Shown here one piece after another: positions 1 to 16,080 of a stretch of 18,772 nucleotides of DNA (its first letter is position 1; each line of letters opens with the position of its first letter). The notes under the pieces are model-generated. The model saw only the letters and a list, made by a program, of their open reading frames with translations, was not told the DNA's origin and searched no databases. The stretch spans positions 1 through 18,772 of the forward strand of contig CAKTKX010000010.1 of NCBI GenBank assembly GCA_934572365.1, written 5' to 3'. The position numbers and the translations under genes were made by a program. Source of the DNA: an uncultured Oscillospiraceae bacterium (GTDB taxonomy: Bacteria > Bacillota > Clostridia > Oscillospirales > Oscillospiraceae).

Positions 1-105
1 AAGAGCGAGCGCGTCCTTGGCTGGAAGGCGGAAAAGAATCTGGAAGACATGTGCCGGGACTCCTGGAACTGGCAGTCCAAGAACCCCATGGGGTACGGGG
101 AATAA
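1..105 (+). CDS. galE: UDP-glucose 4-epimerase, C-terminal fragment (partial at 5' end)
   Basis: The window opens inside a reading frame that starts at base 1 and ends in TAA at 103-105, giving 34 residues. The tail contains [20 protein letters not shown] followed by [12 protein letters not shown]. This is the characteristic C-terminus of bacterial GalE, where the LGWKAE and W-W-Q-x-NP-x-GY residues are strongly conserved. GalE interconverts UDP-glucose and UDP-galactose in the cytoplasm (Leloir pathway and supply of surface-sugar precursors). The NAD-binding Rossmann domain and the catalytic Ser/Tyr/Lys lie outside the window and cannot be checked. An intrinsic terminator follows within ten bases, so galE is the last gene of its transcript. 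Confidence 0.85.
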
Positions 106-113
106 GAAACCGC

Positions 114-153
114 AAACACATCGGGCATCCGTTTGGATGGCCGATGTGTTTTT
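114..153 (+). terminator. Intrinsic terminator after galE, between convergent genes
   Basis: Arms AAACACATCGG (114-124) and CCGATGTGTTT (141-151) pair. A G-G mismatch separates them from an inner stem CATCC/GGATG with a GTTT loop. The plus strand continues as TTTTT (149-153). It lies nine bases past the galE stop and nine bases from the stop of the convergent permease gene. It could partly serve the minus strand too, but the U-tract there is poor. Confidence 0.85.
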
Positions 154-161
154 GTATAGCG

Positions 162-776
162 TCAGATTTCCCGCTTTTCATATAACCGGATGGAGAGCAG
201 CCAGGAGGCGGCGAAAATGACCGTTGCCAGAATCGGCAGCAGCCCAATGGGGAGGGACAGACCGGACAAATCCGGCGTGTCCAGAATGGCGGCGAGACCG
301 CAGAAAATGCCAATGACGCCGATGAAAACAATGCGTCCCTTCTGCGCGCCGAATTTGAAGATCGGCGGCATAACCAGCGCGGAGGACAGCAGGGAGATCG
401 TGGCCAGCACTGCCAGCTGGTCGGTTAAATCTGCGGGGCAGAATGCGCCGTTCCGGCAGAGCCGAATCACGGCGGCAATGGCGGACAGCAGGAAAATGGT
501 ACCGCCACAGATCAGACTCATGATGTACTTTCCGCAGACATATTGCTGCCGGGTCACCGGGAGCGTGTCGCAATAGGTGAGCCAGTGCTCCGCGTCGTCG
601 TAAGCCAGCAGACTCACCGGCAGGGTGCTGCTGAGAATGCAGGGATAGTAGATGAAAAAGGGCGACTGCCCGTCCGAAGAAAAGGCGGAAAAGATAATAA
701 ACGCCAACAAAAACAGGGGCATCAGCCGGCAGTAACTCCAAAGCAGGTAAAAATCCTTCCGAATCAAACCCTTCAT
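162..776 (-). CDS. ABC-2 type transporter permease (YtrA-linked operon)
   Basis: A 204-residue, very hydrophobic protein with about six predicted membrane segments. It begins MKGLIRKDFYLLWSY, the usual opening of the short ABC-2 permeases of Firmicutes (ABC2_membrane_5-like). Hydrophobic runs lie near residues 18-31, 42-60, 84-105, 120-140, 147-163 and 172-197. Basic residues at both ends suggest cytoplasmic termini. The ATG at 774-776 follows the stop of the ATPase gene by a single base and has AAAGGAGG upstream inside that gene, so the two are translationally coupled. It would form the membrane part of the exporter powered by the upstream ATPase. The substrate is unknown. Related GntR-ATPase-permease operons often respond to cell-wall-active compounds, but nothing here fixes that. 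Confidence 0.8.
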   Translation of the reverse strand: MKGLIRKDFYLLWSYCRLMPLFLLAFIIFSAFSSDGQSPFFIYYPCILSSTLPVSLLAYDDAEHWLTYCDTLPVTRQQYVCGKYIMSLICGGTIFLLSAIAAVIRLCRNGAFCPADLTDQLAVLATISLLSSALVMPPIFKFGAQKGRIVFIGVIGIFCGLAAILDTPDLSGLSLPIGLLPILATVIFAASWLLSIRLYEKREI

Positions 777-777
777 T

Positions 778-1620
778 TCAGTGTTCCTCCTTTGCCATGA
801 AAATGAACAGCTGCTCGATGTCCACCGGGCTGAACGGGGGATTTCCGGGGACGCCCGACCGCCTCACCAGAAGCTCGCAGCCGAGGGGTGACACCCGCTT
901 GCCGACGATGGCGGAAGCGGGAATGGCCGCCGCGTCCCGGGCGGAGCAGTGGAGAACTCCGTATTCCTCCTTCAGCCGGTCTTTTTCCTCGCAGAGAATC
1001 AGCTCGCCTTTATGAAGGAAGGCAATGTAGTCGCAGATTTTTTCCAGGTCGCTGACGATGTGGGAGGAGATCAGAATGGCGTGGTTCTCGTCTCGGGTGA
1101 ATTCGTTGAAAATGTCCATGACCTCGTCCCGGACGACCGGGTCAAGGCCGCTGGTGGCTTCGTCCAGAATCAGAAGCCTTGGGTGGTGGGACAGGGCGAC
1201 GGCAATGCCCAGCTTCATTTTCATGCCCCGGGAAAAATCCTTGAATTTCTTGTCCGCGGGGACGGCCAGCCGGGTCAGATAGTCGGCAAAAACCGCATCG
1301 TCCCAGCTGCGGTAAATGCCCCCCATGATCTTGCCCACCTGGCGGGAGGTGAGACAGGCGGAGATGCCCACTTCGTCCAGCACCACGCCGATCTCTTCCT
1401 TGGACAGGCACAGGTTTTCCCGGTTGTCCCGGCCTAAAATGGTGACGGTGCCGCCATCACGGGAAATGGTGTTGAGAATGAGCTTAATGGTGGTGCTTTT
1501 TCCCGCGCCGTTTTCCCCCACAAGCCCCATAATGCAGCCCCAGGGCAGGGTCAGGTTCAGATGATCCAGGGAAAAACCGGCGTAGTGCTTGGTTAGATCC
1601 CGTATTTCCAATGCGTTCAT
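778..1620 (-). CDS. ABC transporter ATP-binding protein (YtrB/BcrA-like)
   Basis: A 280-residue single nucleotide-binding domain. Walker A is GENGAGKS (35-42), the signature region is FSRGMKMKLG (129-138), Walker B is LLILDEA (149-155) followed by TSGLDP, and the switch histidine is H187 (SSH). The Q-loop position reads GVVLDEVG and lacks the usual glutamine, as in some exporter ATPases of this group. The start chosen is ATG at 1618-1620, because GGAGG sits seven bases upstream. A TTG two codons earlier overlaps the regulator's stop and has no well-placed ribosome site. The domain order and the GntR-ATPase-permease context suggest a drug or peptide exporter. The last 60 or so residues are family-variable. 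Substrate unknown. Confidence 0.88.
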   Translation of the reverse strand: MNALEIRDLTKHYAGFSLDHLNLTLPWGCIMGLVGENGAGKSTTIKLILNTISRDGGTVTILGRDNRENLCLSKEEIGVVLDEVGISACLTSRQVGKIMGGIYRSWDDAVFADYLTRLAVPADKKFKDFSRGMKMKLGIAVALSHHPRLLILDEATSGLDPVVRDEVMDIFNEFTRDENHAILISSHIVSDLEKICDYIAFLHKGELILCEEKDRLKEEYGVLHCSARDAAAIPASAIVGKRVSPLGCELLVRRSGVPGNPPFSPVDIEQLFIFMAKEEH

Positions 1621-1622
1621 GT

Positions 1623-1994
1623 TCAATCCTCCATGGCGAATTTGACCATATCCAGAATTTCCTGTTCGCTCAGGCCGACGGACTGGGAAAGGCGGACGAT
1701 CTGGTCAATGTGGTTTTCGATGGTTTTTAGGGTTTCCTCCCGGAGCAGCTCTACGTTTTTGGGAGCCACGAAGCAGCCCTTGGCGGCGATGGTGTAGATG
1801 AAGCCCTCTTTTTCCAGTTCGTCGTAGGCGCGCTTGGTGGTGATGACGCTGATGCGCAGATCTTTGGCGAGATTGCGGATGGAGGGCAGGGCTTCATGCT
1901 CCTGAAGCTCGCCGCTGATGATCTGGGCCTTGATCTGGGAGTAGATCTGGTCGTAAATGGGAAGGCCGCCTTTATTGTCGATCAATACGGTCAC
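1623..1994 (-). CDS. GntR-family transcriptional regulator, YtrA subfamily
   Basis: A 123-residue regulator with an N-terminal winged helix-turn-helix (about residues 10-75). It includes PIYDQIYSQIKAQIISGEL, LPSIRNLAKDL as the HTH, and TTKRAYDELEKEGFIYTIAA leading to the wing. The C-terminal extension is only about 45 residues and helical, the hallmark of the YtrA subfamily, which lacks the large effector domain of FadR or HutC types. The start is GTG at 1992-1994, six bases after GAGGTG; the overlapping ATG is out of frame. It is the first gene of a three-gene operon with an ABC exporter. The symmetric operator over its own promoter argues for autorepression of the whole operon. The inducing signal is not visible from sequence. 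Confidence 0.88.
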   Translation of the reverse strand: MTVLIDNKGGLPIYDQIYSQIKAQIISGELQEHEALPSIRNLAKDLRISVITTKRAYDELEKEGFIYTIAAKGCFVAPKNVELLREETLKTIENHIDQIVRLSQSVGLSEQEILDMVKFAMED

Positions 1995-2010
1995 ATTGGC
2001 ACCTCATTTC

Positions 2011-2049
2011 TGTTACAACTGTATATGTGCAGTATATACAGATATAACA
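2011..2049. promoter_or_regulatory. Symmetric operator, probable GntR/YtrA binding site
   Basis: Nested inverted repeat: TGTTA (2011-2015), three bases, CTGTATAT (2019-2026), seven-base centre, ATATACAG (2034-2041), three bases, TAACA (2045-2049). Both arm pairs are perfect and equally spaced. It covers the -10 box of the regulator's promoter, so occupancy should block transcription. Assignment to the adjacent GntR protein is inferred from position. Confidence 0.7.
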
Positions 2050-2059
2050 GATTTGTCAA
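2031..2059 (-). promoter_or_regulatory. Sigma-A-type promoter of the gntR-ABC operon
   Basis: On the minus strand TTGACA (2059-2054) is separated by 17 bases from TATACT (2036-2031), a near-consensus housekeeping promoter. The start codon at 1994 lies roughly 30 bases past the expected transcription start. The operator arms flank and overlap the -10 element. Confidence 0.85.
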
Positions 2060-2069
2060 GTATCCACGT

Positions 2070-2103
2070 AAAAAAATATCCCAGCCTTTCCGGCTGGGAT
2101 ATT
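2070..2103 (-). terminator. Intrinsic terminator of the amino-acid ABC operon
   Basis: A perfect 12-bp stem, AATATCCCAGCC (2075-2086) with GGCTGGGATATT (2092-2103), and a five-base loop. Read on the minus strand it is followed by seven consecutive U. It sits 13 bases after the ATPase stop and just upstream of the gntR promoter, so it insulates the two operons. Confidence 0.93.
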
Positions 2104-2116
2104 CGCATAGTTGAAA

Positions 2117-2839
2117 TTACAGAACCTTGGACAGGAAATCCTGCAAGCGGGGATTCTGGGGATTGCCGAAAAGCTGGGCAGGGGAGCCTTGCTCCAGGAC
2201 TTTTCCGTCGTCCATGAACAGCACCCGGTTGCCCACCTCCCGGGCAAAGCCCATTTCGTGGGTGACGACCACCATGGTCATGCCGCTTTCCGCCAGCTCC
2301 TTCATAACGGCCAGGACTTCGCCCACCATTTCCGGGTCAAGAGCGGAGGTGGGTTCGTCGAAGAGCATGACCTTGGGATTCATGGCCAGCGCACGGACGA
2401 TGGCGATCCGCTGCTTCTGGCCGCCGGAGAGCTGATTGGGGTAGGCGTCCGCCTTTTCTTCTAGGCTGACCCGGCGCAGGAGCTGGGTGGCCTTGTCGTC
2501 CGCCTCCGCCTGGGTCATCAGGCCGGTGCGCACGGGGGCGAGGGTGATATTCTTGCGGATGGTCATGTTGGGGAAAAGGTTGAAGTGCTGGAACACCATG
2601 CCCATTTTCCGGCGAACCAGGTCGATATTGGTCTTGGGGTCGGTGATGACCTCCCCGTCAAAGGTGATGGTGCCGGAGGTGGGTTCTTCCAGCAGGTTCA
2701 GACTGCGCAGGAACGTGGACTTGCCGGAGCCGGAGGGGCCGATGATGACCATTTTATCCCCGGGGTAGATGTGTTCGGAGATGTCCTTGAGAACCAGATG
2801 GTCGCCGAAGGATTTGCTCAGATGCTTAACGTCGATCAC
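2117..2839 (-). CDS. glnQ: Polar amino-acid ABC transporter, ATP-binding protein (GlnQ/ArtP type)
   Basis: A 240-residue ATPase of the PAAT importer family, at the family's usual length. Walker A is GPSGSGKS (34-41), Q-loop glutamine Q84 ([10 protein letters not shown]), signature LSGGQKQR (137-144), Walker B VMLFDEP (157-163) with SALDPE, and switch histidine H194 in [11 protein letters not shown]. The segments [10 protein letters not shown] and [10 protein letters not shown] are typical of GlnQ, HisP and ArtP proteins. The start is GTG at 2837-2839 with AAAGGAGG ten bases upstream. It overlaps the permease reading frame by 14 bases, indicating translational coupling. It powers the permease encoded just upstream. 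The symbol reflects the family; glutamine specificity is not shown. Confidence 0.9.
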
Positions 2840-3587
2840 TTTGACGCAGCCTCCTTTCCAGTAAACTTTGCAGCCAGCTGAATACCATGACCAGCACCAG
2901 ATAGATGCAGGCGATGCCGATGAGGGGGAACATCTGCTCGTAGGTTCGGCCGTAGATGGCCTGGGCGGCGTAGACCATTTCCTTGCCGCCGATGACGGTG
3001 ATCAGGGAGGTGTCCTTCAGCAGCATGATGAACTCGTTGCCGAGAGCCGGTAAAATGGCCTTGAAGGCCTGGGGAATGACGATCAGACGCATGGTGTCGA
3101 TGTAGCCGAGGCCAAGGCTCCGCCCGGCTTCGGACTGGCCGGGGTCAAGGGACATAAGGCCGCCCCGGATGATCTCGGAGACGTAAGCGCCGGAGTTGAT
3201 GCCCAGGGTCAGGGCGCCCACCATGGTATAGTTCCGGGAGAAGGAGAAGATAACGAAGCCCATGATCAGCAGCTGCACCATCATGGGCGTGCCGCGGATG
3301 ACGGTGACGTATACCTTGCAGATGCCGTTGAACAGACCGAGAATGGGATTTCTGTGCCCCGTCCGCTGCTGGTCGTGGGCGGTTCGGATCACGGCCACCA
3401 GAATGCCGAGAATAATGCCCAGGGTCAGCGCCAAGGCGGTGACCAGCAGGGTGGTGCCGACGCCGTTTAGGTACTGCTTCCACCGGTTGCCGTCAATAAA
3501 TGCCTGGTAGAATTTGACGTAGAATTCCTGCCAGAAGGATGCGGTGCCGTCCCGCATCAGGGGTTTCCAAAGTTCGTAAAGTTCCAC
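2826..3587 (-). CDS. Polar amino-acid ABC transporter permease (HisM/GlnP type)
   Basis: A 253-residue inner-membrane permease. Hydrophobic segments cluster near residues 43-66, 95-115, 122-140, 185-205 and 222-243. Diagnostic motifs are [11 protein letters not shown] at about 97-107 and the EAA loop [20 protein letters not shown] followed by [14 protein letters not shown], which couples to the ATPase. The start is GTG at 3585-3587 with AGAAGGTG five bases upstream; no ATG is better placed. The N-terminus is about 40 residues longer than the shortest family members. It presumably homodimerises, since no second permease gene is present. It lies second in the operon, 129 bases after the binding-protein gene with a strong hairpin between them, and overlaps the ATPase gene. 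Confidence 0.9.
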
Positions 3588-3675
3588 AGCTTCACCTTCT
3601 CATTAAAATGTGTGCTATACGCAGAAAATCGGCCTCCCCCCGGGAAGGACGGTTTTCCGAATACAACGAAACGTC

Positions 3676-3703
3676 GCCAAGGGCGGCCTGAGCCGCCCTT
3701 GGC
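3676..3703 (-). other. Intercistronic hairpin between binding-protein and permease genes
   Basis: GCCAAGGGCGGC (3676-3687) and GCCGCCCTTGGC (3692-3703) form a perfect 12-bp G+C-rich stem with a four-base loop, 14 bases past the binding-protein stop on the minus strand. No U-run follows in the direction of transcription. It is more likely an mRNA-stabilising or partial-attenuation element that raises binding-protein output over the membrane genes than a full terminator. Confidence 0.7.
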
Positions 3704-3716
3704 TAAGCAGGTTACA

Positions 3717-4565
3717 TTATTCGGCGGTGATGTACTTGTCAACGATGGACTGAATGGTGCCGTCGGCGGTCAGCTCGGCCAGCGCCTGATTGATGGCGTC
3801 CAGCAGGGCGGTGTTGTCCTTGTTCACGCCGATGGCGTAGTTCTCGGTGACGTACTCGGTGTCCAGAATGGTCAGACCGGCGTTGGCTGCCACAAAGGCT
3901 TCGGCGGGAGCGGAGTCGATGACCACGCAGTCGACCTGACCGTTCAGCAAAGCCTGCACGGCGGAAGCGCCGTTGTCATAGGCGGTGACATGATCGTCGC
4001 CGTAATCGTCGGTGGTGTAGATGTTGCCGGTGGTGCCGCGCTGGGTGCCGATCATCTTCTCGCCCAGGTTGTCCAGGGTCACGTCGGAGCCTTCCTTGAC
4101 GATGACCACCTGCACGCCGGTGGCGTAGCTGTCGGAGAAGTTCATGACCAGCTGCCGATCCTCGGTGACGGTGACACCGGCCATAACGATGTCGGACTTG
4201 TTCTGCTGCACAGCCAGCAGAGCGGCGTCAAAGTCCATGTCGTCCACTTCCAGGGTCAGACCCAGCTTCTCGGCGATGGCGCCGGCGACCTCAACGTCAA
4301 TGCCCTCGAAGCTGCCGTCGTCGGCAACCATCTCATAGGGAGGGAAGGCGGCGTTGGTGGACATGATCAGCTTGCCGGACTCGATGGTCTTCAGTTCGGA
4401 AGCGGCGGTCTCGGCGGTCGTTGCTTCGGCGGTAGCGGCCTCGGTGGTGACGGCGGGAGCCTCAGTGGCGGCGGTGGTGGTCTTGGTGGTGTTGCTGCTG
4501 CCGCAGCCGGCGAACATGGCCATAACCATCAGAACGGTCAGCGCAAGTGCGAATACCTTTTTCAT
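3717..4565 (-). CDS. Amino-acid ABC transporter substrate-binding lipoprotein
   Basis: A 282-residue family-3 solute-binding protein. Residues 1-20 form a lipoprotein signal peptide (MKK, hydrophobic core, lipobox FAGC with Cys21). A flexible Thr/Ala/Glu-rich linker runs to about residue 57. The binding domain opens LKTIESGKLIMSTNAAFPPY. It contains FEGIDVEVAGAIAEKLGL, AGVTVTEDR and IGTQRGTTG, the usual ligand-contacting segments (conserved Asp after EGI, Arg in TEDR, Arg-Gly-Thr). The end LTADGTIQSIVDKYI is typical. It captures a polar amino acid outside the membrane and delivers it to the permease. The ATG start has AAAGGAG upstream. Its own strong promoter and a half-site-rich region lie upstream. 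Exact substrate cannot be read, though arginine is a candidate from the promoter motifs. Confidence 0.92.
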   Translation of the reverse strand: MKKVFALALTVLMVMAMFAGCGSSNTTKTTTAATEAPAVTTEAATAEATTAETAASELKTIESGKLIMSTNAAFPPYEMVADDGSFEGIDVEVAGAIAEKLGLTLEVDDMDFDAALLAVQQNKSDIVMAGVTVTEDRQLVMNFSDSYATGVQVVIVKEGSDVTLDNLGEKMIGTQRGTTGNIYTTDDYGDDHVTAYDNGASAVQALLNGQVDCVVIDSAPAEAFVAANAGLTILDTEYVTENYAIGVNKDNTALLDAINQALAELTADGTIQSIVDKYITAE

Positions 4566-4591
4566 AATTTTACTCTCCTTTTCATTTTCGG

Positions 4592-4609
4592 CCTCCCGAA
4601 GGGGGGAGG
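4592..4609 (-). other. Small hairpin at the 5' end of the binding-protein transcript
   Basis: CCTCCC (4592-4597) and GGGAGG (4604-4609) pair across a six-base loop. This lies a few bases after the predicted transcription start (about 4617) and about 15 bases before the ribosome site on the minus strand. Such 5' hairpins commonly protect mRNA; a regulatory role is possible but unsupported. Confidence 0.4.
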
Positions 4610-4623
4610 GAATTTATGCCTGC

Positions 4624-4652
4624 ATTATAGCGCGTATGTTATTCATCGTCAA
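4624..4652 (-). promoter_or_regulatory. Promoter of the amino-acid ABC operon
   Basis: On the minus strand TTGACG (4652-4647) is 17 bases from a perfect TATAAT (4629-4624). Transcription should start near 4617, about 50 bases before the ATG. An ATTCA half-site (4641-4645) lies in the spacer and a TGAAT half-site (4658-4662) just upstream of the -35 box. Confidence 0.88.
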
Positions 4653-4805
4653 TTGGGTGAATATACAACAATGAAAGAAAAATCAGGCTGCGTGTAATGA
4701 AAATACCACAAAAAAGCGCAAATTCAATATGTATATGTGAATATTCAAATGTTTCATCCTGAATTTTTACAGTGAGGGAATGCATATTATTCATTTTGAG
4801 TGAAT
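4641..4805. promoter_or_regulatory. Cluster of ATTCA/TGAAT half-sites in a divergent promoter region
   Basis: The pentamers ATTCA and TGAAT alternate four times as inverted pairs: 4641-4645/4658-4662, 4722-4726/4738-4742, 4743-4747/4760-4764 and 4789-4793/4801-4805. The spacers are 12, 11, 12 and 7 bases. The middle copies abut to give TGAATATTCA (4738-4747). The stretch is AT-rich between two G+C-rich genes and lies between divergent promoters. TGAAT/ATTCA is the half-site of ArgR/AhrC ARG boxes, but the spacing is not the standard four bases, so the binding protein is uncertain. Confidence 0.5.
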
Positions 4806-4838
4806 ATGCAGCCATGCAAAGCCACCGGGGCGGAAATC

Positions 4839-4867
4839 TTGACGTGCTTATCGGCATCTGGTATAAT
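4839..4867 (+). promoter_or_regulatory. Promoter of the acyltransferase gene
   Basis: TTGACG (4839-4844), 17-base spacer, TATAAT (4862-4867). The hexamers and spacing are identical to those of the divergent amino-acid operon promoter. The predicted start near 4874 leaves a leader of only about 25 bases before the ATG at 4900. Confidence 0.88.
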
Positions 4868-4899
4868 TTACGTAAATGCTGCAATCAGGAGGATGCCCT

Positions 4900-6189
4900 A
4901 TGAAAACCACCGTCAGAGAACTGGACTACGATAAAGTCATGGCGCTGCCCCAGTATCCCCATCTGCATCCCGTTAAGCCCGGCATCTTCTGGCGTACCCT
5001 CATCCGGGGACTCTCCGCCCTGGGGCTGGCCGGAACCCAGTTCCATTACACCAGCGAGGGCATGGAGAAGGTGGGCAGGAACGAGCCCTGCCTGATCCTC
5101 ATGAACCACTCCTGCTTCCTGGATTTGCAGATCGCAAGCACCATCCTGTACCCCAGACCCTACAATATTATTTGCACCTCCGACGGCTTCGTGGGTCTGG
5201 GCGGCCTGATGGCCTGGGCGATGCGCACCATCGGCTGCGTACCCACCCGGAAATTCGTCACCGACCTGACGCTGGTGCAGGATATGGTCTACTGCCTGAA
5301 AGACCTGAAAAGCAGCGTTCTCATGTACCCGGAGGCCAGCTATTCCTTCGACGGCACCTGCACGGCGCTGCCCCGGAAAATGGGCGTGCTGCTGAAAAAG
5401 CTGGATGTCCCGGTGGTGATGATCGAGACCTTCGGCGCGTTCAGCCGCAACCCGCTGTACAACGAATTGCAGGTGCGCAAAAGCGTCCCCGTTTCGGCGA
5501 AGGTGCGGTTGCTCTACAGCCGGGAGGACTTGAAGGAAAAGTCCGTCAAGGAGCTGTCCGACGGGCTGGACGAAGCCTTCTCTTTTGACCAGTTCCGCTG
5601 GCAGAAGGAAAACGGCATCAAAATCACCGACGGCTTCCGGGCGGACGGCTTGGAGCGCATCCTATATAAATGTCCCCGCTGCGGCGCAGAGGGGGAGCTG
5701 ACGGGCAAAGGCACCGGCCTGACCTGCCGCCATTGCGGCAAGCGTTGGGAACTGACCCCCATCGGCGATCTGGCGGCGTCGGAGGGGGAGACGGAGTTCG
5801 CCCACATCCCCGACTGGTATCGCTGGGAGCGGGAACAGGTGCGCCGGGAGCTTGAGGACGGAACCTACAGGCTGGACATCGACGTGGACATCGCCATGAT
5901 GGTGGATTTCAAGGCCATTTACAAAGTAGGGCAGGGGCGCCTGACCCACGACCGGGAGGGCTTCACCCTCACGGGCTGCGGCGGCCGTCTCCGCTACACC
6001 CAGAAGCCCACGGCCTCCTACGGCCTGTACGCCGACTACTACTGGTACGAGATCGCGGACACCATCTGCATCGGCGACAACCGGTGCCTGTATTACTGCT
6101 TCCCCAAGAAGGGCTGCCCGGTGGCGAAGACCCGCCTGGCGGCGGAGGAACTGTACAAGCTGTGCAAAGCCGGAGTATTGGCAAAATGA
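4900..6189 (+). CDS. PlsC-like lysophospholipid acyltransferase with C-terminal zinc ribbon
   Basis: A 429-residue protein. Residues 60-230 carry the PlsC/AGPAT-type acyltransferase fold: NHSCFLD (69-75) is the catalytic HX4D box (His70, Asp75), and MYPEASYSFDG (142-152) replaces the usual FPEG-T-R-S glycerophosphate-binding motif, keeping Pro-Glu. Residues 258-282 form a four-cysteine zinc ribbon, CPRCG and CRHCG (Cys258, 261, 276, 279). The final 130 residues are unrecognised and rich in aromatic and acidic positions (ADYYWYEIAD). It probably acylates a glycerolipid-type acceptor at the cytoplasmic membrane face, but substrate and acyl donor are unknown. The start at 4900 is chosen because AGGAGG (4887-4892) is seven bases upstream. 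An in-frame ATG at 4876 almost coincides with the predicted transcription start. It appears monocistronic. Confidence 0.8.
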   Translation: MKTTVRELDYDKVMALPQYPHLHPVKPGIFWRTLIRGLSALGLAGTQFHYTSEGMEKVGRNEPCLILMNHSCFLDLQIASTILYPRPYNIICTSDGFVGLGGLMAWAMRTIGCVPTRKFVTDLTLVQDMVYCLKDLKSSVLMYPEASYSFDGTCTALPRKMGVLLKKLDVPVVMIETFGAFSRNPLYNELQVRKSVPVSAKVRLLYSREDLKEKSVKELSDGLDEAFSFDQFRWQKENGIKITDGFRADGLERILYKCPRCGAEGELTGKGTGLTCRHCGKRWELTPIGDLAASEGETEFAHIPDWYRWEREQVRRELEDGTYRLDIDVDIAMMVDFKAIYKVGQGRLTHDREGFTLTGCGGRLRYTQKPTASYGLYADYYWYEIADTICIGDNRCLYYCFPKKGCPVAKTRLAAEELYKLCKAGVLAK

Positions 6190-6537: not shown

Positions 6538-8742
6538 ATGAAAAAGTTCAACAAGATCGTGAGTCTGCTGCTGGCTCTGGTCATGGTTCTGAGTCTGGCT
6601 GCCTGCGGCGGCAAGACCACCACCCCCAGCACCACTGCTCCCGTTGCCGCGACCGAGGCAACTGCGGCTGCTGAGTACGTAGACCCCTATGCCGACATCC
6701 GCGATGACTACGACGCTCTGTCCGAGGCCATCTACAATGACGTGCTGGGCGACTTCATCACGGCCTATGACGCCGGTAAGGCGGTCACCGACAATGTCTC
6801 CGAGCGTTACGCTCTGATGGCCATTGCCGAGGCCAAGCTGCTGGAGTCCGCCACCCTGATGCCCCTGACCGCAAAGGGCGGCAACTATGCCATCTCCCGT
6901 GTGGCTCCCTACACCTTTTCCAGTGTTCTGTGGGGCAATGACGCCCAGCGTTATCACAACGCCATCGTCACCACCGAGCCCATCAAGACCGCTGACCGTG
7001 ACGAGCTGAAGGCTCTGTGGGCCGAGCTGAAGGGCACCGGCACCTACGCTGCCGAGGCTACCAAGCTGCTGGAGAGCAAGGGCTACACCATTAAGGACAC
7101 CTACGCTCCCGGCGGCAAGTTCTCCTCCGATCCCCAGACCTGGGACATTCTGGCTACCTCCCGTGCTGCTGACGCCGAGGCCATTGTCAACACCTACGAC
7201 GGCCTGGTCGAGTACGACTGCGAGAACGTCATGCAGCCCGCTCTGGCTGAGAGCTGGGAAGTTTCCGACGACGGCCTGACCTACACCTTCCACCTGCGTC
7301 AGGGCGCGAAGTGGGTCGACTCTCAGGGCCGTGAGGTCGGCGAAGTGAAGGCTGACGACTTTGTTGCCGGTATGCAGCACATGATGGACGTCATGGGCGG
7401 CCTGGAGTACCTGATCGAGGGCATCATTGTCAATGCCAGCGAATACATCTCCGGCGACGTCACCGACTTTGCTGAGGTCGGCGTCAAGGCCGTTGACGAC
7501 TACACCGTCGAGTACACCCTCTGCCAGCCCACCTCCTTCTTCATGACCATGCTGGGCTACAATGTGTTTGCTCCTATGAGCCGCAGCTACTACGAGTCCA
7601 AGGGCGGCAAGTTCGGTGCCGACTTCGACAACTCTGCTGCTTCCTACACCTACGGCAAGACCCCCAGTGACATCGCTTACTGCGGTCCTTACCTGGTGTC
7701 CAACTTCACCTCCGAGAACACCATCGTGTTCACCGCGAACCCCGCTTACTGGAACAAGGACAACATCACCATCAAGACCCTGACTTGGCTGTACAACGAC
7801 GGCCAGGACGCTCTGAAGGCCTACAACGACACCATGTCCGGTGTTCTGGACGGCGCCGGCCTGAACGCCTCCGCTGCTGAGCAGGCCAAGACCGACGGCG
7901 TGTTTGACACCCTGGCCTACGTTTCCGCCACCGACGCGACTACCTTCAGCGCGTTCCTGAACGTCAACCGTGCCGCTACCTCCAACGTCAATGACGGCTC
8001 CGTCGTCTCTCCCAAAGATGGCGACGAGGAGGCTATGACCCGTACCAACGCCGCCTTCCTGAACGTACACTTCCGCCGCGCCATCATGTTCGCGCTGGAT
8101 CGTGCCACCTACAACGCTCAGACCGTCGGTGAAGACCTGAAGTACGCTTCCATGGTCAACACCTACACCCCCGGCAACTTCGTGTCTCTGGAAGAGGACA
8201 CCACCGTTGACATCAACGGCACTGCCACCACCTTCCCCGCCGGCACCTACTACGGCGCCATCGTGCAGGCTCAGATCGACGCTGACGGCCTGACCATCAA
8301 GGTGTGGGATCCCGAGGCCGAAGGCGGCGTTGGTTCCTCCACTCAGTTTGACGGCTGGTACAACCCCGATGAGGCTGCTGCCGAGCTGGCCACCGCTGTT
8401 GAAGAGCTGGCTGCTGAGGGCGTCGAGGTTTCCGCTGAGAACCCCATCTACATGGATATCCCCTACTTCTCCGGTTCCGAAGCTTACGGCAACCGCGCCA
8501 ATGCCCTGAAGAAGTCCATTGAGACTGTCCTGGGCGGCGCCGTGATCGTCAACCTGGTTGAGTGCGTTGATTCCAACGCCTGGTACTACGCCGGCTACTA
8601 CACCGACTTCGGTTATGAAGCCAACTACGACTTCTACGATGTCTCCGGCTGGGGCCCCGACTACGGCGATCCTCAGACCTATCTGGATACTTTCCTGCCC
8701 GATTACGCTGGCTACATGGTCAAGTGCATCGGCCTGTTCTAA
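6538..8742 (+). CDS. amiA: Oligopeptide-binding lipoprotein (SBP family 5, AmiA/OppA-like), apparently circularly permuted
   Basis: A 734-residue extracellular lipoprotein that captures peptides for the Ami permease. The signal peptide (1-22) ends in lipobox LAAC with Cys23, then a Thr/Ala linker to about 47. Residues 196-734 read as the family-5 binding fold: LAESWEVSDDGLTYTFHLRQ (236-255), then GAKWVDSQGREVGEVKADDF, and finally GWGPDYGDPQTYLDTFLP (704-721). The protein stops 13 residues later. In AmiA-type proteins about 130 residues normally follow that motif, containing a RY..YA.AQAWL..S...P helix and a conserved tail. A segment of exactly that kind (SERYALMAIAEAKLLESATL, then MPLTAKGGNYAISRVAPY; about 52-165) lies instead at the N-terminus. 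Codon use (AAC, TTC, GCT, GAC) suggests very high expression. The ATG has AGGAGG 11 bases upstream. Confidence 0.9.
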   Translation: MKKFNKIVSLLLALVMVLSLAACGGKTTTPSTTAPVAATEATAAAEYVDPYADIRDDYDALSEAIYNDVLGDFITAYDAGKAVTDNVSERYALMAIAEAKLLESATLMPLTAKGGNYAISRVAPYTFSSVLWGNDAQRYHNAIVTTEPIKTADRDELKALWAELKGTGTYAAEATKLLESKGYTIKDTYAPGGKFSSDPQTWDILATSRAADAEAIVNTYDGLVEYDCENVMQPALAESWEVSDDGLTYTFHLRQGAKWVDSQGREVGEVKADDFVAGMQHMMDVMGGLEYLIEGIIVNASEYISGDVTDFAEVGVKAVDDYTVEYTLCQPTSFFMTMLGYNVFAPMSRSYYESKGGKFGADFDNSAASYTYGKTPSDIAYCGPYLVSNFTSENTIVFTANPAYWNKDNITIKTLTWLYNDGQDALKAYNDTMSGVLDGAGLNASAAEQAKTDGVFDTLAYVSATDATTFSAFLNVNRAATSNVNDGSVVSPKDGDEEAMTRTNAAFLNVHFRRAIMFALDRATYNAQTVGEDLKYASMVNTYTPGNFVSLEEDTTVDINGTATTFPAGTYYGAIVQAQIDADGLTIKVWDPEAEGGVGSSTQFDGWYNPDEAAAELATAVEELAAEGVEVSAENPIYMDIPYFSGSEAYGNRANALKKSIETVLGGAVIVNLVECVDSNAWYYAGYYTDFGYEANYDFYDVSGWGPDYGDPQTYLDTFLPDYAGYMVKCIGLF

Positions 8743-9133: not shown

Positions 9134-10711
9134 ATGACGAGATATTTGATTAACCGAATCCTTCGGGGTATTTGCTCGATGGTAATCGTGGTCGGCATCG
9201 TCATGGTGATGGTCTATTCCGCACTGGACCGGAACCTGATTTTTGCCGCCGACTCCATGTATACCCGCGTGAAGTCCAACGCCAAGGAAGTATACATGAT
9301 GCAGCAGTGGGAACGCTATGGCTATGTGGATTACGTTCCCTACTCGGACTATATGCGCCAGCTTGTCCGTGACGACGAGATCACCCAGGAGCAGTACAGC
9401 GCTGCCATCACCTTTGGCAACAAGGCGAGCCAGGACAGCGACGAGGCCGCGGAGTTTATCCGGCGCTTCACCGAGGAATACGAATCCAAGGGCTACAAGG
9501 TCGTCCGTCTGGACGGCAAAATGAAAGGCAAGACCAAGAAATATCAGGACGGCGGCGAGCCGCGCCTGTACGCCTACAGGAACATTCCCGTTCTCATGCG
9601 TCTTGTCAACTATTTCAAAAACCTGATCACCGTCGATAACATCCACTATGTGGAGGATGAGATCGAGGATCGGGGCATTACCTTCACCCTCCGTGACCCG
9701 GTTTACGGCGGCGAAAAGTTCTCGCCAGCGGTGATGGGTACGGGTACGCAGTATAAGTACCTGTTCTATTTCGATGATTCCTTCCCCTTCATTCACCAGA
9801 ATCTGGTGAAGATCAACCTGGGTCTTTCCTACTCCATCCGCCAGGGCATTGACGTGTTCCAGACCATGACGGAATCGCAGGGTTCCTATGCCTATTCCAC
9901 CGTGACCTATCCCACCGGGTCGGTTTCCGAGTCGGCCGACGATCTGCACTCGGCTTCCTATATCTCCGGCTCCCTTGCCGGCGGCGGCCCCGTGGTCAAG
10001 GCCAGCTTTGTGGATGATTACACCAACATTTCCACAAACAAGAACGGCATGTCCAAAATCGGCTACTCCTTCACCATCGGCATCATCGCCGTGTTCCTTT
10101 CCTATTTGATCGGTGTCCCGGTTGGCATCATCATGGCGCTGCGGAAGGATAAGCTGATGGATCACATCGGCACGTTCTATATTGTGTTTATTACCGCGGT
10201 TCCCTCCCTTGCCTATATTTTCCTGTTCAAATCTCTGGGCGGCAGGTTTGGATTGCCCACGACCTTTGATATGGAGAATCCCACCTGGCTTATGTATGTG
10301 CTGCCCATCATCTCATTGTCCCTGCCCTCCATCGCCAGCCTGATGAAGTGGCTGCGGCGGTATATGATCGATCAGATGAACTCCGATTACGTCAAGTTCG
10401 CCCGGAGCGGCGGCCTGTCCGAAGGGGAAATTTTCCGGAAGCACATTCTGAAAAACGCCATCATTCCCATTGTCCATGACATCCCCGCCAGCATTCTGTT
10501 CGCCCTCACCGGTGCGATCATCACCGAGCGGGTGTACGTGGTTCCCGGCGTCGGCAACATGCTGACCCGCGCCATCAACGCTTACGACAACGGCGTGATC
10601 GTCGGTATGGTTCTCTTTTATGCCGTGCTGACCGTGACCTCCGTCATCCTGGGCGACGTGCTGATGTCCGTTTTGGACCCCAGAATTTCCTTTACGGCAA
10701 AAGCGAGGTAA
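9134..10711 (+). CDS. amiC: Oligopeptide ABC transporter permease AmiC/OppB
   Basis: A 525-residue membrane protein. One N-terminal membrane helix (about 8-30, RGICSMVIVVGIVMVMVYSA) is followed by an extracytoplasmic domain of about 270 residues. A standard BPD_transp_1 permease domain with about five helices occupies about 312-520. The EAA coupling loop begins VKFARSGGLSEGEIFRKHIL (from residue 420), and the C-terminus has DPRISFT. The large ectodomain and phrases such as NLIFAADSMYTRV, ERYGYVDYV, YKYLFYFDDSFPFIHQN and LVKINLGLSYS match streptococcal AmiC. Ordinary OppB proteins are about 300-330 residues and lack this domain. The ATG at 9134 is preceded by only a weak GAGATGAGAGATG ribosome site. 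It pairs with AmiD six bases downstream to form the channel. Confidence 0.92.
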   Translation: MTRYLINRILRGICSMVIVVGIVMVMVYSALDRNLIFAADSMYTRVKSNAKEVYMMQQWERYGYVDYVPYSDYMRQLVRDDEITQEQYSAAITFGNKASQDSDEAAEFIRRFTEEYESKGYKVVRLDGKMKGKTKKYQDGGEPRLYAYRNIPVLMRLVNYFKNLITVDNIHYVEDEIEDRGITFTLRDPVYGGEKFSPAVMGTGTQYKYLFYFDDSFPFIHQNLVKINLGLSYSIRQGIDVFQTMTESQGSYAYSTVTYPTGSVSESADDLHSASYISGSLAGGGPVVKASFVDDYTNISTNKNGMSKIGYSFTIGIIAVFLSYLIGVPVGIIMALRKDKLMDHIGTFYIVFITAVPSLAYIFLFKSLGGRFGLPTTFDMENPTWLMYVLPIISLSLPSIASLMKWLRRYMIDQMNSDYVKFARSGGLSEGEIFRKHILKNAIIPIVHDIPASILFALTGAIITERVYVVPGVGNMLTRAINAYDNGVIVGMVLFYAVLTVTSVILGDVLMSVLDPRISFTAKAR

Positions 10712-10717
10712 CCGACT

Positions 10718-11707
10718 ATGAACGAGAAAAAAATCGATTTAAGCGATCTGAATATGACGGACGAGGAGCTGTTCGCTCCCGTCAACCACGACGAGCTGGA
10801 ATCCGAACGGATCACCGCCCCCCGGTACTCCTACTGGCATTCCGTGTTCCGCGTGTTCTTTAAGAAAAAGATCAACACCGTGCTGCTGCTGATCCTGGCA
10901 GTGCTGCTGCTGTTCACCTATGTGTACCCCCTGATCATCCACTATGACGCGGCGGTGGATCCCTATATCAACCTGATGGACTCCACGGCCAAGCACTTAG
11001 GCCCCAAGGCCGCCATGGCGAAGTTCGGAAATAATATCCACTGGATCTTCGGCAGCGGCTCCGCCGGTCAGTCCACCTTTGACGCAGTGTGGTACGGCTC
11101 CAGCATTTCCGTTTCTCTGGCACTGGTGTGCGCCCTCATTAACATGACCGTGGGCGTTGTGATCGGCGCCGTCTGGGGCTTCAGCAAGAAAGTGGACTTG
11201 TTCATGACGGAGGTTTACAACGTCATTGCCAACATCCCCAGCATTCTGCTGATTTCCGTCATCGTGCTGATCATGTCCGCTTCCTTCTGGACAATGGTCT
11301 TCGCCTTGACCATCACCGGCTGGATCGGCATCGCCTACTTTATCCGCACCCAGGTCATCATCATCCGTGACCGTGAGTACAACCTGGCTTCCCGGTGCCT
11401 GGGTACACCCATCACCCGCATCGCGTCGAAGAATATTCTGCCCTTCATGACCTCCGTCATTGTGACCCTGGCCGCGGCGGAAATTCCCTCCTACACTTCC
11501 TATGAAGTGTTCCTGAGCTACATCGGCATGGGTCTTAAGGACATGTCCCTGGGCAAGCTGATCGAGGCTTCCCAGAACGCCATGCAGACCCCCGGCTGGG
11601 AGATCGAATTCTGGACGCCTGTGGCCGTCGCCTCCATCATCACCGTTGTGCTGTATGTGGTTGGCCAGAATCTGGGCGACGCTTCCGACCCCAGAACCCA
11701 TATGTAA
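10718..11707 (+). CDS. amiD: Oligopeptide ABC transporter permease AmiD/OppC
   Basis: A 329-residue permease subunit. A cytoplasmic N-terminus carries ITAPRYSYWHSVFRVFFKKK (about 29-48) before the first membrane helix. An extracytoplasmic segment includes HWIFGSGSAGQSTFDAVWYG, the typical HWFGTD-x-G region of OppC proteins. The five-helix permease core contains the EAA loop EYNLASRCLGTPITRIASKN (from about 220). The C-terminus ends VGQNLGDASDPRTHM, nearly the same as streptococcal AmiD (VGQNLADASDPRTH). The ATG is six bases after the amiC stop, with GCGAGG overlapping that stop, so the genes are translationally linked. Together AmiC and AmiD make the peptide-conducting pore. Confidence 0.93.
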   Translation: MNEKKIDLSDLNMTDEELFAPVNHDELESERITAPRYSYWHSVFRVFFKKKINTVLLLILAVLLLFTYVYPLIIHYDAAVDPYINLMDSTAKHLGPKAAMAKFGNNIHWIFGSGSAGQSTFDAVWYGSSISVSLALVCALINMTVGVVIGAVWGFSKKVDLFMTEVYNVIANIPSILLISVIVLIMSASFWTMVFALTITGWIGIAYFIRTQVIIIRDREYNLASRCLGTPITRIASKNILPFMTSVIVTLAAAEIPSYTSYEVFLSYIGMGLKDMSLGKLIEASQNAMQTPGWEIEFWTPVAVASIITVVLYVVGQNLGDASDPRTHM

Positions 11708-11719
11708 GAGGTGGCGCGA

Positions 11720-13468
11720 ATGGATAATCAAAAAGTATTGCTGTCCGTTGAGAACCTGCACGTGAATTTCCGGGTTCGCGGAAGGACCCTGTCTGCCATT
11801 CGGGGCATCTCTCTGGACTTCTATGAAAATGAATCCATCGCCATCGTGGGCGAGTCCGGCTCCGGCAAGTCCGTGTTTACCAAGACCTTTGCCGGTATGC
11901 TGGATACCAACGGCTACATCAGCGAGGGTTCCATCATCTTCAACGACGACGAGCTTTCGGACACGAAGGTTTCCTTGGACGCCCAGGCGAAGCGGCTCAT
12001 TGCCAATACCTGGGAGAAGCTGAACAAGTACTCCCAGCTGGAGTTTGGCGCGAAGACATACTGCGCCATGCGGGAGCTTGAGCAGGAGAAAAAGTCCAGA
12101 GAAGGCCTGAGCGAGGAGGAAAATCAGAACATTTCCGCCAAAATCGACGACCTGACCTTCCGCCGCACCGAGCTGTACAACCACAAGCTGACCATCGACC
12201 CCAAAAAGGAGCGGGAGCGCCATAAGGAGGTTTCCGCCGAAATCGACGCTCTGGATGCCGAGATCAAGGCGCTGCAAAAGGAACACGCCGCCGTGGCCGC
12301 TGCCCACAAGCAGGCGGCGAGGAACGACACCGCGTACCGCAAGCACTTCGACGAGCGGATGGGAGAACTGAAGGCGGAGTATGCCAGGCAGATTTCCACC
12401 CCCATTTCCGAGGATACCAAGGCGCGCAACGAGATCATCGCCAAGGAAATTTACCTGTCCGTCGGCCGCTATCCCATGTTCAAGCGCTTAAGGCTCATTG
12501 GTAAGCTGCTCAGCAGCTTCAAGGACGCCATGTCCGTGGGCAAGGATCTGAGCAGCGACGAGGTGCGTAATTCCGTGTTCGACGAGGTGGTCTTCCGGGT
12601 CAAATACCTGGACGAGACCGAGGATATGCTCCACGGCACCTGCGTCATCAACCTGGCCAAGATCCGGTATTCCAAGGACTGGACGCAGATTCGCGGCGGC
12701 AAGATCGCCACGGTGTTCCAGGATCCCATGACCTCCCTGAACCCCATCATCACCATCGGCAAGCAGATCACCTCCGTTATCCTCAAGCACCAGAACTGCT
12801 CTGAGCTGGAGGCGAGAGAGCGGGCTTTGGTGCTGATGAAGAAGGTGGGCATTCCCAATGCGGAATCCCGGTTCGACGATTACCCCTTCCAGTATTCCGG
12901 CGGTATGCGCCAGCGTATCGTTATCGCCATCGCCCTGTCCTGCCAGCCGAAAATTCTGATCTGCGACGAGCCGACCACCGCTCTGGACGTGACCATTCAG
13001 GCGCAGATCCTGAAGCTGATCAAGGATCTGCAGAAGGAATTCGGCTACACCATCGTCTTCATCACCCATGACCTGGGCGTTGTGGCCAACGTGGCCGACC
13101 GGGTCGCGGTGCTTTACGGCGGTCAGGTCGTGGAGCTGGGTACCTGCGAGGAAGTGTTCTACGATCCCAGACATCCCTACACCTGGGCGCTTCTGTCCAG
13201 CCTTCCTCAGCTGGCGCAGCGGAACACCAAGCTTTACTCCATCACCGGCACGCCCCCGTCTCTGTACAATAAGATCGTGGGCGACGCCTTTGCTCCCCGG
13301 AATCCCTACTGCCTGGAGATCGACACGCTGCGGGAGCCGCCTATGTTCCAGGTCTCCGAGACCCACTTTGCCAAGACCTGGCTGCTGGATCCAAGAGCAC
13401 CGAAGGTGGAAAAGCCCGAAATCATCCAAAACATCCACGAGAAGCTTGTGGAAGCATTCAACATTTAA
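11720..13468 (+). CDS. amiE: Oligopeptide ABC transporter ATPase AmiE/OppD with a large insertion
   Basis: A 582-residue ATPase, where AmiE/OppD proteins are about 320-360. Walker A is GESGSGKS (44-51), Q-loop Q334 ([14 protein letters not shown]), signature YSGGMRQR (392-399), Walker B ILICDEP (412-418) and switch histidine H450 (ITHDLG). The C-terminal oligopeptide domain ([18 protein letters not shown], about 484-562) retains [15 protein letters not shown] and [20 protein letters not shown], as in AmiE. Lys50 and Gln334 are 284 residues apart instead of about 57. The extra segment, roughly 85-315, is charged and helical, with a Lys/Glu/Ala-rich stretch at 165-225 that looks like a coiled coil. 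Sequence resumes cleanly at [11 protein letters not shown]. The start is ATG 11720, five bases after AGAGGTGG; an in-frame GTG at 11711 lies inside that ribosome site. Confidence 0.92.
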
Positions 13469-13480
13469 GGAGGATTCACT

Positions 13481-14782
13481 GTGTCTAAAGAAAAAGAAAC
13501 CGTGCGTGTTTCTCATCTACCGGAACATGGTCCTCTGGATGAGAATGGCAGAGAGATCCTGCTGAGTCTGAAAAATGTGGACATTACCTTCGGCAAAGGC
13601 GACGATGCTGTGAGGGCTGTCAAGAATGCCAGCTTCGATATTTACAAGGGCGAGACTTTCTCCCTGGTCGGCGAGTCCGGCTCCGGCAAAACCACCATCG
13701 GCCGGGCGATCATTCGGGTCAATCCCTGCGCCGCAGGCGAAATTCAGTATAAGGGCGTCCGCATTTCCGGCAAGACCCCCAAGAGCCTTGACCGGGAGGT
13801 CATCCGGAACATCCAGATGGTGTTCCAGGATCCCGCGGCGTCCCTGAACGAGCGCGCCACCGTGGACTACATCGTGTCCGAGGGCCTGTATAACTTCCAC
13901 CTGTTTGAGAACGAGGAAGACCGGGTCCGCAAGGTGGAAAACATCATCAGCGAAGTGGGCCTGCTGCCTGAGCATCTGACCCGGTATCCCCACGAGTTCT
14001 CCGGCGGCCAGCGGCAGCGTATCGGCCTTGCCAGAGCCATGGTCATGGAGCCGGAGCTGGTCGTCGCCGACGAACCCATTTCCGCGCTGGACGTTTCCAT
14101 CCGCGCCCAGGTGCTGAACCTGCTGAAAAAGTTCCAGAAGGAGCGGGACATCACTTATCTGTTCATTGCCCACGACCTGTCCATGGTGCGCCATATTTCC
14201 GACCGGATCGGCGTTATTTACAAGGGCGATATCGTGGAGATCGCGGAGGCGGAGGAGCTGTTTGATTTCCCCCTCCACCCCTATACCCGCAGCCTGATTT
14301 CTGCCATCCCCATTCCCGACCCCATTCTGGAGAAGAACAAGGTCCTCTTTACCTACGATCCTTCCGTCCACGACTACAGCGAGGACAAGCCCGAGCTGGT
14401 AGATATTGGCAATAATCACTTTGTCTACGGCAACAAGAAGGAGATCGAGGAGTACAAGGCCATCCGCGCCAAGGGCGAGAAGGTCAAGTCCATCACCATC
14501 CTGGATCCTGACGCCCCCAGACCGGAGCAGCCCGAGCAGAAGGTGGACGAGAAGGGCAGCGATGCTTTCCTGGAGACGCCGCTGCACGACACCGGCAGCA
14601 AGTGGTATTCCATTCTGTCCTTCTTCCTGCCCATTCTGGGCCTGATCGCCGCGGGCGTATTCCGCCATTTCCATCACATCCGCAACTACAGGGCATGCAA
14701 GAAAGGCGCAATCGCCGGCCTCATTACGCTGGCCGTGATCATCCTGTTCTTTGCCTTGATGTTGGTCTTTGCATTGCTATAG
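13481..14782 (+). CDS. amiF: Oligopeptide ABC transporter ATPase AmiF/OppF with two C-terminal membrane helices
   Basis: A 433-residue protein. The nucleotide-binding domain has Walker [10 protein letters not shown]-loop [14 protein letters not shown], signature [15 protein letters not shown], Walker [13 protein letters not shown] and switch [14 protein letters not shown]. The oligopeptide C-terminal domain follows, [20 protein letters not shown], then [20 protein letters not shown], which matches streptococcal AmiF (308 residues). Beyond it come about 110 residues not found in AmiF: an acidic/Pro linker and two hydrophobic helices, about 376-396 ([17 protein letters not shown]) and 410-433 ([20 protein letters not shown]). 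A basic, His-rich loop lies between them ([13 protein letters not shown]). The start is GTG at 13481 with AAGGAGG seven bases upstream. It partners AmiE as the second ATPase, here apparently membrane-anchored. Confidence 0.92.
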
Positions 14783-14793
14783 TCAAATGTTAA

Positions 14794-14820
14794 CGCGGAG
14801 CGGCGTTGTGCCGCTCCGCG
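14794..14820 (+). terminator. Strong G+C hairpin after amiF, likely partial terminator
   Basis: CGCGGAGCGGC (14794-14804) and GCCGCTCCGCG (14810-14820) form a perfect 11-bp stem with loop GTTGT. The sequence after it (CATTCTTTCC) has only an interrupted U-tract, and the next gene's ribosome site begins at 14831 with no promoter visible. Read-through into the next gene is therefore likely. Confidence 0.6.
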
Positions 14821-14847
14821 CATTCTTTCCAAGGAGTGGAAATCACC

Positions 14848-16080
14848 ATGAAGAAAAACGGTAAGGACAGCCGCCCCAGCTTGCCGCCAATCCGAAAAAT
14901 CGAAGTGTCCGAGGAGCGAAAGGGGCTGCGAATTGCTCTGGCGGCGGTCTTTCTTGTTATCGGCGCCGTGGCGATCATCATAGGCCTGGTTTCTCTGCTG
15001 AACACGGAGCCGGGCTGGCAGGAAGTGGAGATCAACGCCAACGGCGCCAACTGCGCCGGGGAGTTCGTGCTGATGTACGATTTTTCCGACGCGGGGGCTT
15101 CGGCATCGGCGGTGAATAAGCAGTTGACGACCCTGTATTCCCAGGCGGCAGAGGATGCCTACCGAATTTTCAGCCCCGATGTGAAGGAAGACGGGTTGGC
15201 GAATGTGGGGTATCTAAACGGACATGTGAATGAAATCGTGACCGTTGACCCGGCGCTTTATAAGGCGCTGACGGTGCTGACACAATATGATTGCCGCTAT
15301 GCCTATCTCGCCCCGGCCTATGCCGAATACGACCGGGTGTTTTCGGCGGAGAGTGACGCGGAGGCCGCGCGGTATGACCCTGCGGGCGACCCGGAGCTGG
15401 CGGAATATCTTGCCGAAATTGCCGCCTTTGCCGGAAATCCGGAGATGGTGAATCTGGAAACCCTGGGGGATAACCGGGTGCGGCTGACGGTTTCGTCGGA
15501 ATATCTGAAATTCGTGGAGGAAGACGAAATCGAGACGCTGCTGGATTTTGGCTGGATGAAAAACGCCATTATCGCGGACTATCTGGCGGATACGCTGGAA
15601 GCGGAGGGCTTTACCAGCGGCTATCTCAGCAGCTACGACGGCTTCACCCGAAACCTTGACCGGCGGGGAAACGAGTATGTTTTCAACCTGTTTGACCGGC
15701 AGCGAAGCGACGTGAATTTGCCTGCAAAAATGCGGTATATTGCCCCCTTAAGCATCGTGTTCCTGCGGGATTACCCCATGGGCGAACAGGACCAGTGGCA
15801 TTATCACGCCTTTGCCTCCGGGAAAATCGTCACGACGTTCCTGGATACCGCCGACGGCATGAGCAAGAGCGCCTGTCCCAATCTGGTTTCCTATTCCGAC
15901 AGCCTTGGCTGCGGAGAGATCCTGATGCAGACCGCGCCGGTGTTTATTGCCGACGAACTTGACACCCGGCCGCTGGACGCGCTGAAGGAAAAGCAGCTGT
16001 ACTCCATTTGGAGCGAGGGCGGAGAGCTGAAATGGAATGACCCGGAATTGAAGATCGATTTTATGGAAAAAGCAGATTAA
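14848..16080 (+). CDS. Membrane-anchored protein with a degenerate ApbE-like ectodomain
   Basis: A 410-residue protein: basic cytoplasmic N-terminus, one membrane helix (about 27-50) and an extracellular domain. I recognise no exact family, but the order of motifs follows ApbE (FAD:protein FMN transferase). NVGYLNGHVNEIVTVDPALY (119-138) stands where ApbE has S-x-x-RLN...V.VSPEL. DFGWMKNAIIADYLADTLEA (233-252) stands where it has DLGGIAKGYAAD. SSYDG (261-265) matches the GG turn, FLDTADG (331-337) matches H-I-I-D-P-x-T-G, and GCGEILMQTAPVF (354-366) matches the AD-x-x-AT helix. Several catalytic and metal positions are changed (no HIIDP histidine; Glu for Asp in the last motif), so enzyme activity is doubtful. 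The ATG has AAGGAG 11 bases upstream. It probably belongs to the ami transcript. The ApbE link is an inference. Confidence 0.6.
   Translation: MKKNGKDSRPSLPPIRKIEVSEERKGLRIALAAVFLVIGAVAIIIGLVSLLNTEPGWQEVEINANGANCAGEFVLMYDFSDAGASASAVNKQLTTLYSQAAEDAYRIFSPDVKEDGLANVGYLNGHVNEIVTVDPALYKALTVLTQYDCRYAYLAPAYAEYDRVFSAESDAEAARYDPAGDPELAEYLAEIAAFAGNPEMVNLETLGDNRVRLTVSSEYLKFVEEDEIETLLDFGWMKNAIIADYLADTLEAEGFTSGYLSSYDGFTRNLDRRGNEYVFNLFDRQRSDVNLPAKMRYIAPLSIVFLRDYPMGEQDQWHYHAFASGKIVTTFLDTADGMSKSACPNLVSYSDSLGCGEILMQTAPVFIADELDTRPLDALKEKQLYSIWSEGGELKWNDPELKIDFMEKAD

Follow-up and report, generated by a model that had tools for sequence, protein, structure and literature searches.

The 18,772-nucleotide stretch analysed here (the window), from a contig of an uncultured Oscillospiraceae bacterium, encodes an oligopeptide-binding lipoprotein whose chain appears to begin with what is normally its end. 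This raises the question of whether the order reflects a natural circular permutation, how often such an order has arisen, and what it may mean for the tethering of the receptor. Judged from its sequence, the protein is very probably an Ami/Opp-type (oppABCDF) substrate-binding lipoprotein whose cluster C (family 5) fold has been circularly permuted in nature.

Parts of the window protein

The gene is the plus-strand ORF at 6538-8742, encoding 734 aa with the lipobox LAAC and Cys23. An earlier note on this DNA had set its start at 6691, which the ORF list of the window moves to 6538. The protein was compared with 137 permuted proteins (alignment A1), taken from the listed homologues thinned at 93% identity, leaving out P0106 and P0115 (apparent chimeras), P0088 (truncated) and P0213 (partial). 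Residues 1-23 (6538..6606, +) form a lipoprotein signal peptide with a predicted acylated Cys23, and Cys occupies column 23 in 134 of the 137 aligned proteins. A Thr/Ala-rich linker from lipid anchor to fold follows (residues 24-47; 6607..6678, +), largely without consensus in A1. Next is the displaced segment (residues 48-165; 6679..7032, +), equivalent to the canonical C-terminus, with homology detectable from about residue 65. By the AliD domain limits given in excerpts of the published structure description (PMC11192437), it holds the end of domain III, the third domain I stretch and the start of helix alpha19. A connector (residues 166-186; 7033..7095, +) leads from the old C-terminus to the old N-terminus; its G166, T167, G168, G182, Y183 and T184 are kept in at least 90% of the 137 permuted proteins. 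The canonical body, SBP_bac_5, runs from the old N-terminus up to the cut (residues 187-734; 7096..8739, +) and corresponds to PF00496 and to AmiA 15-497.

Near the end of the body is the GWGPDYGDPQTYLD motif (8647..8688, +), in which W705 and D708 correspond by alignment to AliD W498 and D501, the pair that holds the peptide N-terminus (PMC11192437, in excerpt); the AliD chain in phmmer runs 25 behind the numbering of that paper (chain W473 = W498). W705, D708 and D711 are invariant in all 137 permuted proteins. So are G115, G133, D135 and R138 of the displaced segment, and by a hand count on the phmmer alignment the last three fall close to the position of AliD N608, a domain I residue described as touching the peptide (PMC11192437, in excerpt). 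The new C-terminus (8689..8739, +) extends 17 residues beyond the motif, against 13 counted earlier; across A1 this tail measures 16-20 or 24 residues.

The best PDB matches by phmmer lie within the AmiA/AliB/AliC/AliD group, receptors of the Ami permease of S. pneumoniae. Like these, the window protein is a family 5 lipoprotein with the binding Trp and Asp kept, and its gene lies beside oppB, oppC, oppD and oppF, as for Ami/Opp receptors. In contrast to AmiA and the Ali proteins, which have native order and an anchor on lobe 1, it carries its C-terminal segment first, and its anchor would be on lobe 2. The only Pfam match is SBP_bac_5 (PF00496) at residues 232-721 (E 1.2e-44, 153.4 bits vs a gathering score of 32.4), leaving the first 231 residues unexplained. 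Models that depend on chain order thus cover permutants only partly, here 232-721 of 734. PF27766 was rejected as a description of the N-terminal segment (N-segment): the label also sits on P0106 and P0115, which alone among the 234 listed homologues lack the segment.

Evidence for the rotated chain order

phmmer against PDB chains placed query residues 190-719 on AmiA (8a42) 15-497 and residues 76-165 on AmiA 530-622, and the matches to AliD and AliC are rotated likewise. Each out-of-order piece is weak by itself (i-values 0.38, 0.072 and 0.026 in this search), and the N-segment searched alone gave a best E of 7.8e-4, to AliC. Since single out-of-order matches are weak, four further tests were run. 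Profile-profile comparison matched the N-segment of the 137 permuted proteins to the C-terminus of 58 canonical proteins over 94 gap-free columns (E 1.5e-7, probability 93.9%); as a negative control, the N-segment profile gave no match to the canonical body (probability 0.2%, one column). An N-segment HMM built from permuted proteins only matched 40 of 118 unique canonical ORFs, in all 40 cases within the last quarter; the 78 without a match are too distant. Doubling the canonical reference raised the local score from 701 to 788, from 455 to 506 and from 517 to 626 (gains of 87, 51 and 109), while shuffled N-segments, 50 per reference, gained at most 13, 14 and 32, and two canonical control pairs gained 0 and 11. 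The mycoplasma OppA model NF043077, which scores far below its cut-off in all genes compared, is met along the permuted protein G001:C103 in the order 781-886, 40-135, 263-485 and along that of G002 in the order 781-887, 46-135, 260-507, 702-733; along the canonical paralogue G001:C87, from the same genome as C103, the order is 36-155, 258-452, 783-880.

Together these methods strongly establish the circular permutation at the level of sequence. phmmer, profile, N-segment HMM, NF043077 order and doubled reference agree that the C-terminal segment sits N-terminally, after the lipobox linker and ahead of the usual beginning of the fold, as the earlier note had proposed. That note gave the segment as residues about 52-165; its N-terminal place stands, but not the start at 52, because the match to canonical ORFs usually begins at 62-75 (in one case at 51) and residues 48-61 have almost no detectable match to them. 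PF00496 places the protein in SBP_bac_5 and cluster C, yet the native order, with domain I both opening and closing the chain, is not found. The rotated order thus makes the window protein a variant of the cluster C family and not a standard member.

Two permuted queries yielded 234 distinct listed homologues (the best 120 of 6508 and the best 120 of 3677, overlap removed), of which 232 share the permuted order; a canonical query gave 119 of 120 listed homologues in normal order and one unclassified. These counts bear on two other explanations. Residues 48-165 could be an independent N-terminal domain resembling the C-terminus of a substrate-binding protein, the true C-terminus having been lost. 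The weak single-sequence similarity of the segment leans that way, but the profile match is gap-free and to the C-terminus only, the canonical HMM matches all fall in the last quarter, NF043077 is met in rotated order, and, had the C-terminus been lost without a substitute, part of domain I would be missing from 232 of the 234 listed homologues; we consider this very improbable. That the order is an assembly artefact, or a chimera of tandem oppA genes, has a negligible probability. Apparent chimeras do occur among the homologues, and tandem oppA arrays exist, but the same order recurs, diverged, throughout the 232 proteins; one of these, P0226, is from an assembly named Butyrivibrio fibrisolvens whose longest contig is 349 kb, and the other cut sites described below include cases on contigs longer than 3 Mb (G236:C1, G536:C1, G775:C1). 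Both weigh against an artefact, and natural circular permutation is the reading we retain. The two exceptions, P0106 and P0115, join a foreign OppA N-terminus to a window-type body with an abrupt switch at DDGLTYTF or DDSLTYTF, and are probably assembly chimeras.

In line with the earlier note, which would have yielded to a known family with this order as its standard, none was found in Pfam, NCBIfam or the literature (titles and abstract starts). The top NCBIfam models for all five window proteins are those of mycoplasma OppA (NF043077) and OppBCDF, below their cut-offs; in contrast to the rotated window protein, that OppA model follows the native order, with the segment last (781-887). No report of natural permutation in cluster C proteins was found among titles and abstract starts, a search with subscription journals and preprints outside it. 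A natural permuted sugar receptor is already known: TpMglB-2 (Tp0684) of Treponema pallidum, termed 'Type Ic / Cluster Bc', with relatives in gut Gram-positives (PMC4990184, in excerpt). Like the window protein, it is a substrate-binding lipoprotein with a permuted chain that probably serves an ABC importer. TpMglB-2 has the type I (cluster B) sugar fold, with strands moved from N- to C-terminus, whereas the window protein is of cluster C and shows the opposite move; Pfam and the PDB sequence matches put it in family 5 and not in the type I fold. The authors of TpMglB-2 noted that its moved part has 13% identity and may come from another gene (PMC4990184, in excerpt); in the window protein, unlike there, homology of the moved part is measurable. 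The sole natural precedent found in these searches among Venus-flytrap receptors is thus a sugar-binding protein.

Distribution, further cut sites and number of origins

We name the blocks of the fold A (domains I/II), B (the next part of I and the start of III), C (the motif-bearing middle of III) and D (the end of III and the C-terminus), so that the window type is D-A-B-C. It was found in 20 of 196 genomes of the family of G002 (19 as one fetched ORF each, one split over two contigs), in at least 5 of 391 genomes of its class and in at least 2 of 398 of its phylum, the last two counts being lower bounds with two candidates scored per genome. A plasmid search at E 1e-30 gave no window-type protein. 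All 20 window-type rows fall on one branch (SH-aLRT 99) of a 96-row quick tree, next to the canonical L048, L063 and L088 with weaker support (92). On this tree the window-type order is of one origin.

Two further cut sites, by alignment also in domain III, are new here and occur in ordinary Opp/Dpp-type proteins. The order C-D-A-B is present in 11 genomes (G292 L073, G236 L074, G346 L078, G984 L127, G546 L136, G859 L171, G637 L178, G710 L179, G789 L180, G765 L205 and G775 L206). On the OppA chain 8are, L073 matches with residues 214-563 at 17-364 (i-value 1.7e-81) and with residues 56-195 at 367-507 (6.5e-26). A third order, with its cut within B directly ahead of the RKAL helix, is present in three genomes (G536 L148, G572 L144 and G268 L164). 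With a doubled reference the scores rose from 816 to 1221 and from 829 to 1173 for L073, and from 710 to 1259 for L148. Approximate hand alignment sets the C-D-A-B and third-type cuts near AliD 429 and 330, within domain III as delimited in the excerpts. Such other cuts were found in 7 of 391 genomes of one class (G292, G236, G346, G546, G572, G536 and G268; E 1e-75, three candidates scored) and, with the query genome not counted, in 6 of 299 genomes of a phylum draw (G859, G637, G710, G789, G765 and G775; E 1e-70, four candidates scored); G984 was added from 30 genomes of one order. A plasmid match spanning the C-D-A-B junction was rejected as a permutant: it runs across two neighbours of four tandem genes, three complete and in normal order, the cut fourth likewise as far as it is readable.

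The rows of the quick tree were thinned by identity and gap content, and L205 and L206 are in no tree. From its 96 rows, 39 were drawn for a careful tree, which omits the window type, the half of the canonical proteins that is AmiA-like, and a number of canonical rows that were long or redundant. On this 39-protein tree the labels require 5 changes, at least 4 of them forced by well-supported branches. AU tests on it rejected one clade for C-D-A-B (p 1.9e-5), one clade for the third type (p 2.8e-62) and both single clades together (p 6.6e-66). One clade of C-D-A-B minus L136 was not rejected (p 0.43), a set picked after the tree was seen; the other groups were named by architecture. In the quick tree 6 changes are needed for all labels, but the canonical label has to change only 4 times when the starred branches alone are counted; the figure of five therefore rests on the careful tree. 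Gene conversion was considered as a source of the apparent multiple origins and set aside, as identity by halves in seven permuted proteins agrees with the tree; both halves of L136 are nearest to canonical proteins, so that gene conversion is not supported there.

The trees point to at least five changes of order, window type included. The tree itself cannot tell gains from returns to normal order, though gains seem likelier. Permutation is likely to be a recurrent route in the evolution of the cluster C fold, with at least five independent origins, three cut sites in domain III as a hotspot, the domain I termini closed, and the lipoprotein cases re-tethered from lobe 1 to lobe 2. Independent permutants of one fold at different sites offer a natural experiment on chain order, folding and membrane tethering in Venus-flytrap receptors.

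Lipid anchor, proposed origin and operon

In AliD, domain I comprises residues 29-63, 191-296 and 583-617, domain II 64-190, domain III 297-582, and helix alpha19 622-652 (PMC11192437, in excerpt). The first and third of the domain I stretches bear out the earlier claim that the native N- and C-terminal stretches both belong to domain I. By alignment the end of the window protein (733) lies near AliD 525, and the displaced match 84-163 near AliD 553-634. The new cut (AliD about 525-553) would accordingly lie in domain III, on lobe 2, and the old termini would be joined by the conserved connector on lobe 1. With the cut in domain III, the lipid anchor would pass from lobe 1 over to lobe 2, as the alignment and the excerpted AliD limits favour; the earlier note had anticipated a shift of the anchor relative to the peptide cleft.

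Whether the permutation was selected for moving the anchor to lobe 2, thereby changing the encounter of receptor and permease, is doubtful. Aligned to the excerpted limits, each of the three cut sites falls within domain III, giving a new N-terminus on lobe 2; the lipobox Cys is kept in nearly all window-type proteins (the 134 of 137 above); and the authors of TpMglB-2 raised an anchoring advantage for their permutant (PMC4990184, in excerpt). But six C-D-A-B genomes (G859, G637, G710, G789, G765 and G775) have no convincing lipobox, their signal peptides ending in AxA by eye, so anchor relocation cannot be the sole cause; flexible linkers, moreover, could make the anchor position neutral. The lipobox pattern flagged MATC in G859, and the gene start in G775 is uncertain; in L136 and L164 the pattern missed a Cys that is at the right place by eye.

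At the level of sequence, the native domain I termini are joined through the connector of about 20 residues, and the new termini lie in domain III directly behind the GWGPDY...YLD motif. The most likely route would be a tandem oppA duplication and in-frame fusion of the copies, after which most of the first copy and the final part of the second would have been lost. With both native termini in domain I, closing them would be cheap. A plausible start is a tandem oppA array such as that on Phyllobacterium plasmid NZ_CP088275.1 (L196), where positions 1-6097 carry four tandem oppA genes upstream of oppB; fusion across one would give the observed orders directly. The duplication-fusion route is a reconstruction, since none of 540 fetched proteins or ORFs with a domain I/II piece and a C-terminal-type segment was an intermediate with such a segment on both sides. 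Peptide binding would proceed as in AmiA and AliD by homology, with W705 and D708 holding the peptide N-terminus in lobe 2, the displaced segment completing the wall of lobe 1, and lobe 2 rather than lobe 1 carrying the lipid anchor. Elsewhere in the family, the permutations at the two other domain III sites appear to have arisen independently. On the simplest reading, the window protein would be a peptide receptor of the usual kind whose chain order has changed.

Downstream of the window protein gene the order is oppB (9134), oppC (10718), oppD (11711) and oppF (13481), all on the plus strand, and four window-type relatives (L002, L121, L122 and L123) have retained this operon, with its long-loop OppB and with OppC, OppD and OppF. 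The permease OppB (9134..10711) has 525 aa, with PF00528 at 327-519 and a match to NF043081; its long extracytoplasmic part resembles the large loop of AmiC, which has 498 aa (PMC11192437, in excerpt). At loci connected with the two other cut sites whose neighbouring genes were read (L117-L119, L161-L165, L171 and L178), the OppB encoded nearby matches only the C-terminal permease part of the window OppB. The second permease, OppC (10718..11707), matches PF00528, PF12911 and, with 319 bits below the cut-off of 370, NF043080.

The ATPase OppD (11711..13468) scores 715 bits with NF043079, just below the cut-off of 740, and carries an insert of about 220 aa (residues about 96-313) inside the ABC domain. 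The insert is common to NF043079 and the four window-type operons and absent from the canonical-order homologue in G114. The second ATPase, OppF (13481..14782), was assigned by NCBIfam and sequence, and has a hydrophobic C-terminal tail; by eye its last 75 or so codons would encode a two-helix membrane hairpin. A membrane-bound ATPase subunit would be unusual. The tail is present in L001-L004 and L123 and absent from L120-L122. Downstream of oppF, positions 14806-16080 encode an uncharacterised 424-aa protein with no Pfam match and, by eye, a single membrane helix; relatives stand at the same place in L002, L121 and L122 (41, 24 and 22% identity over parts).
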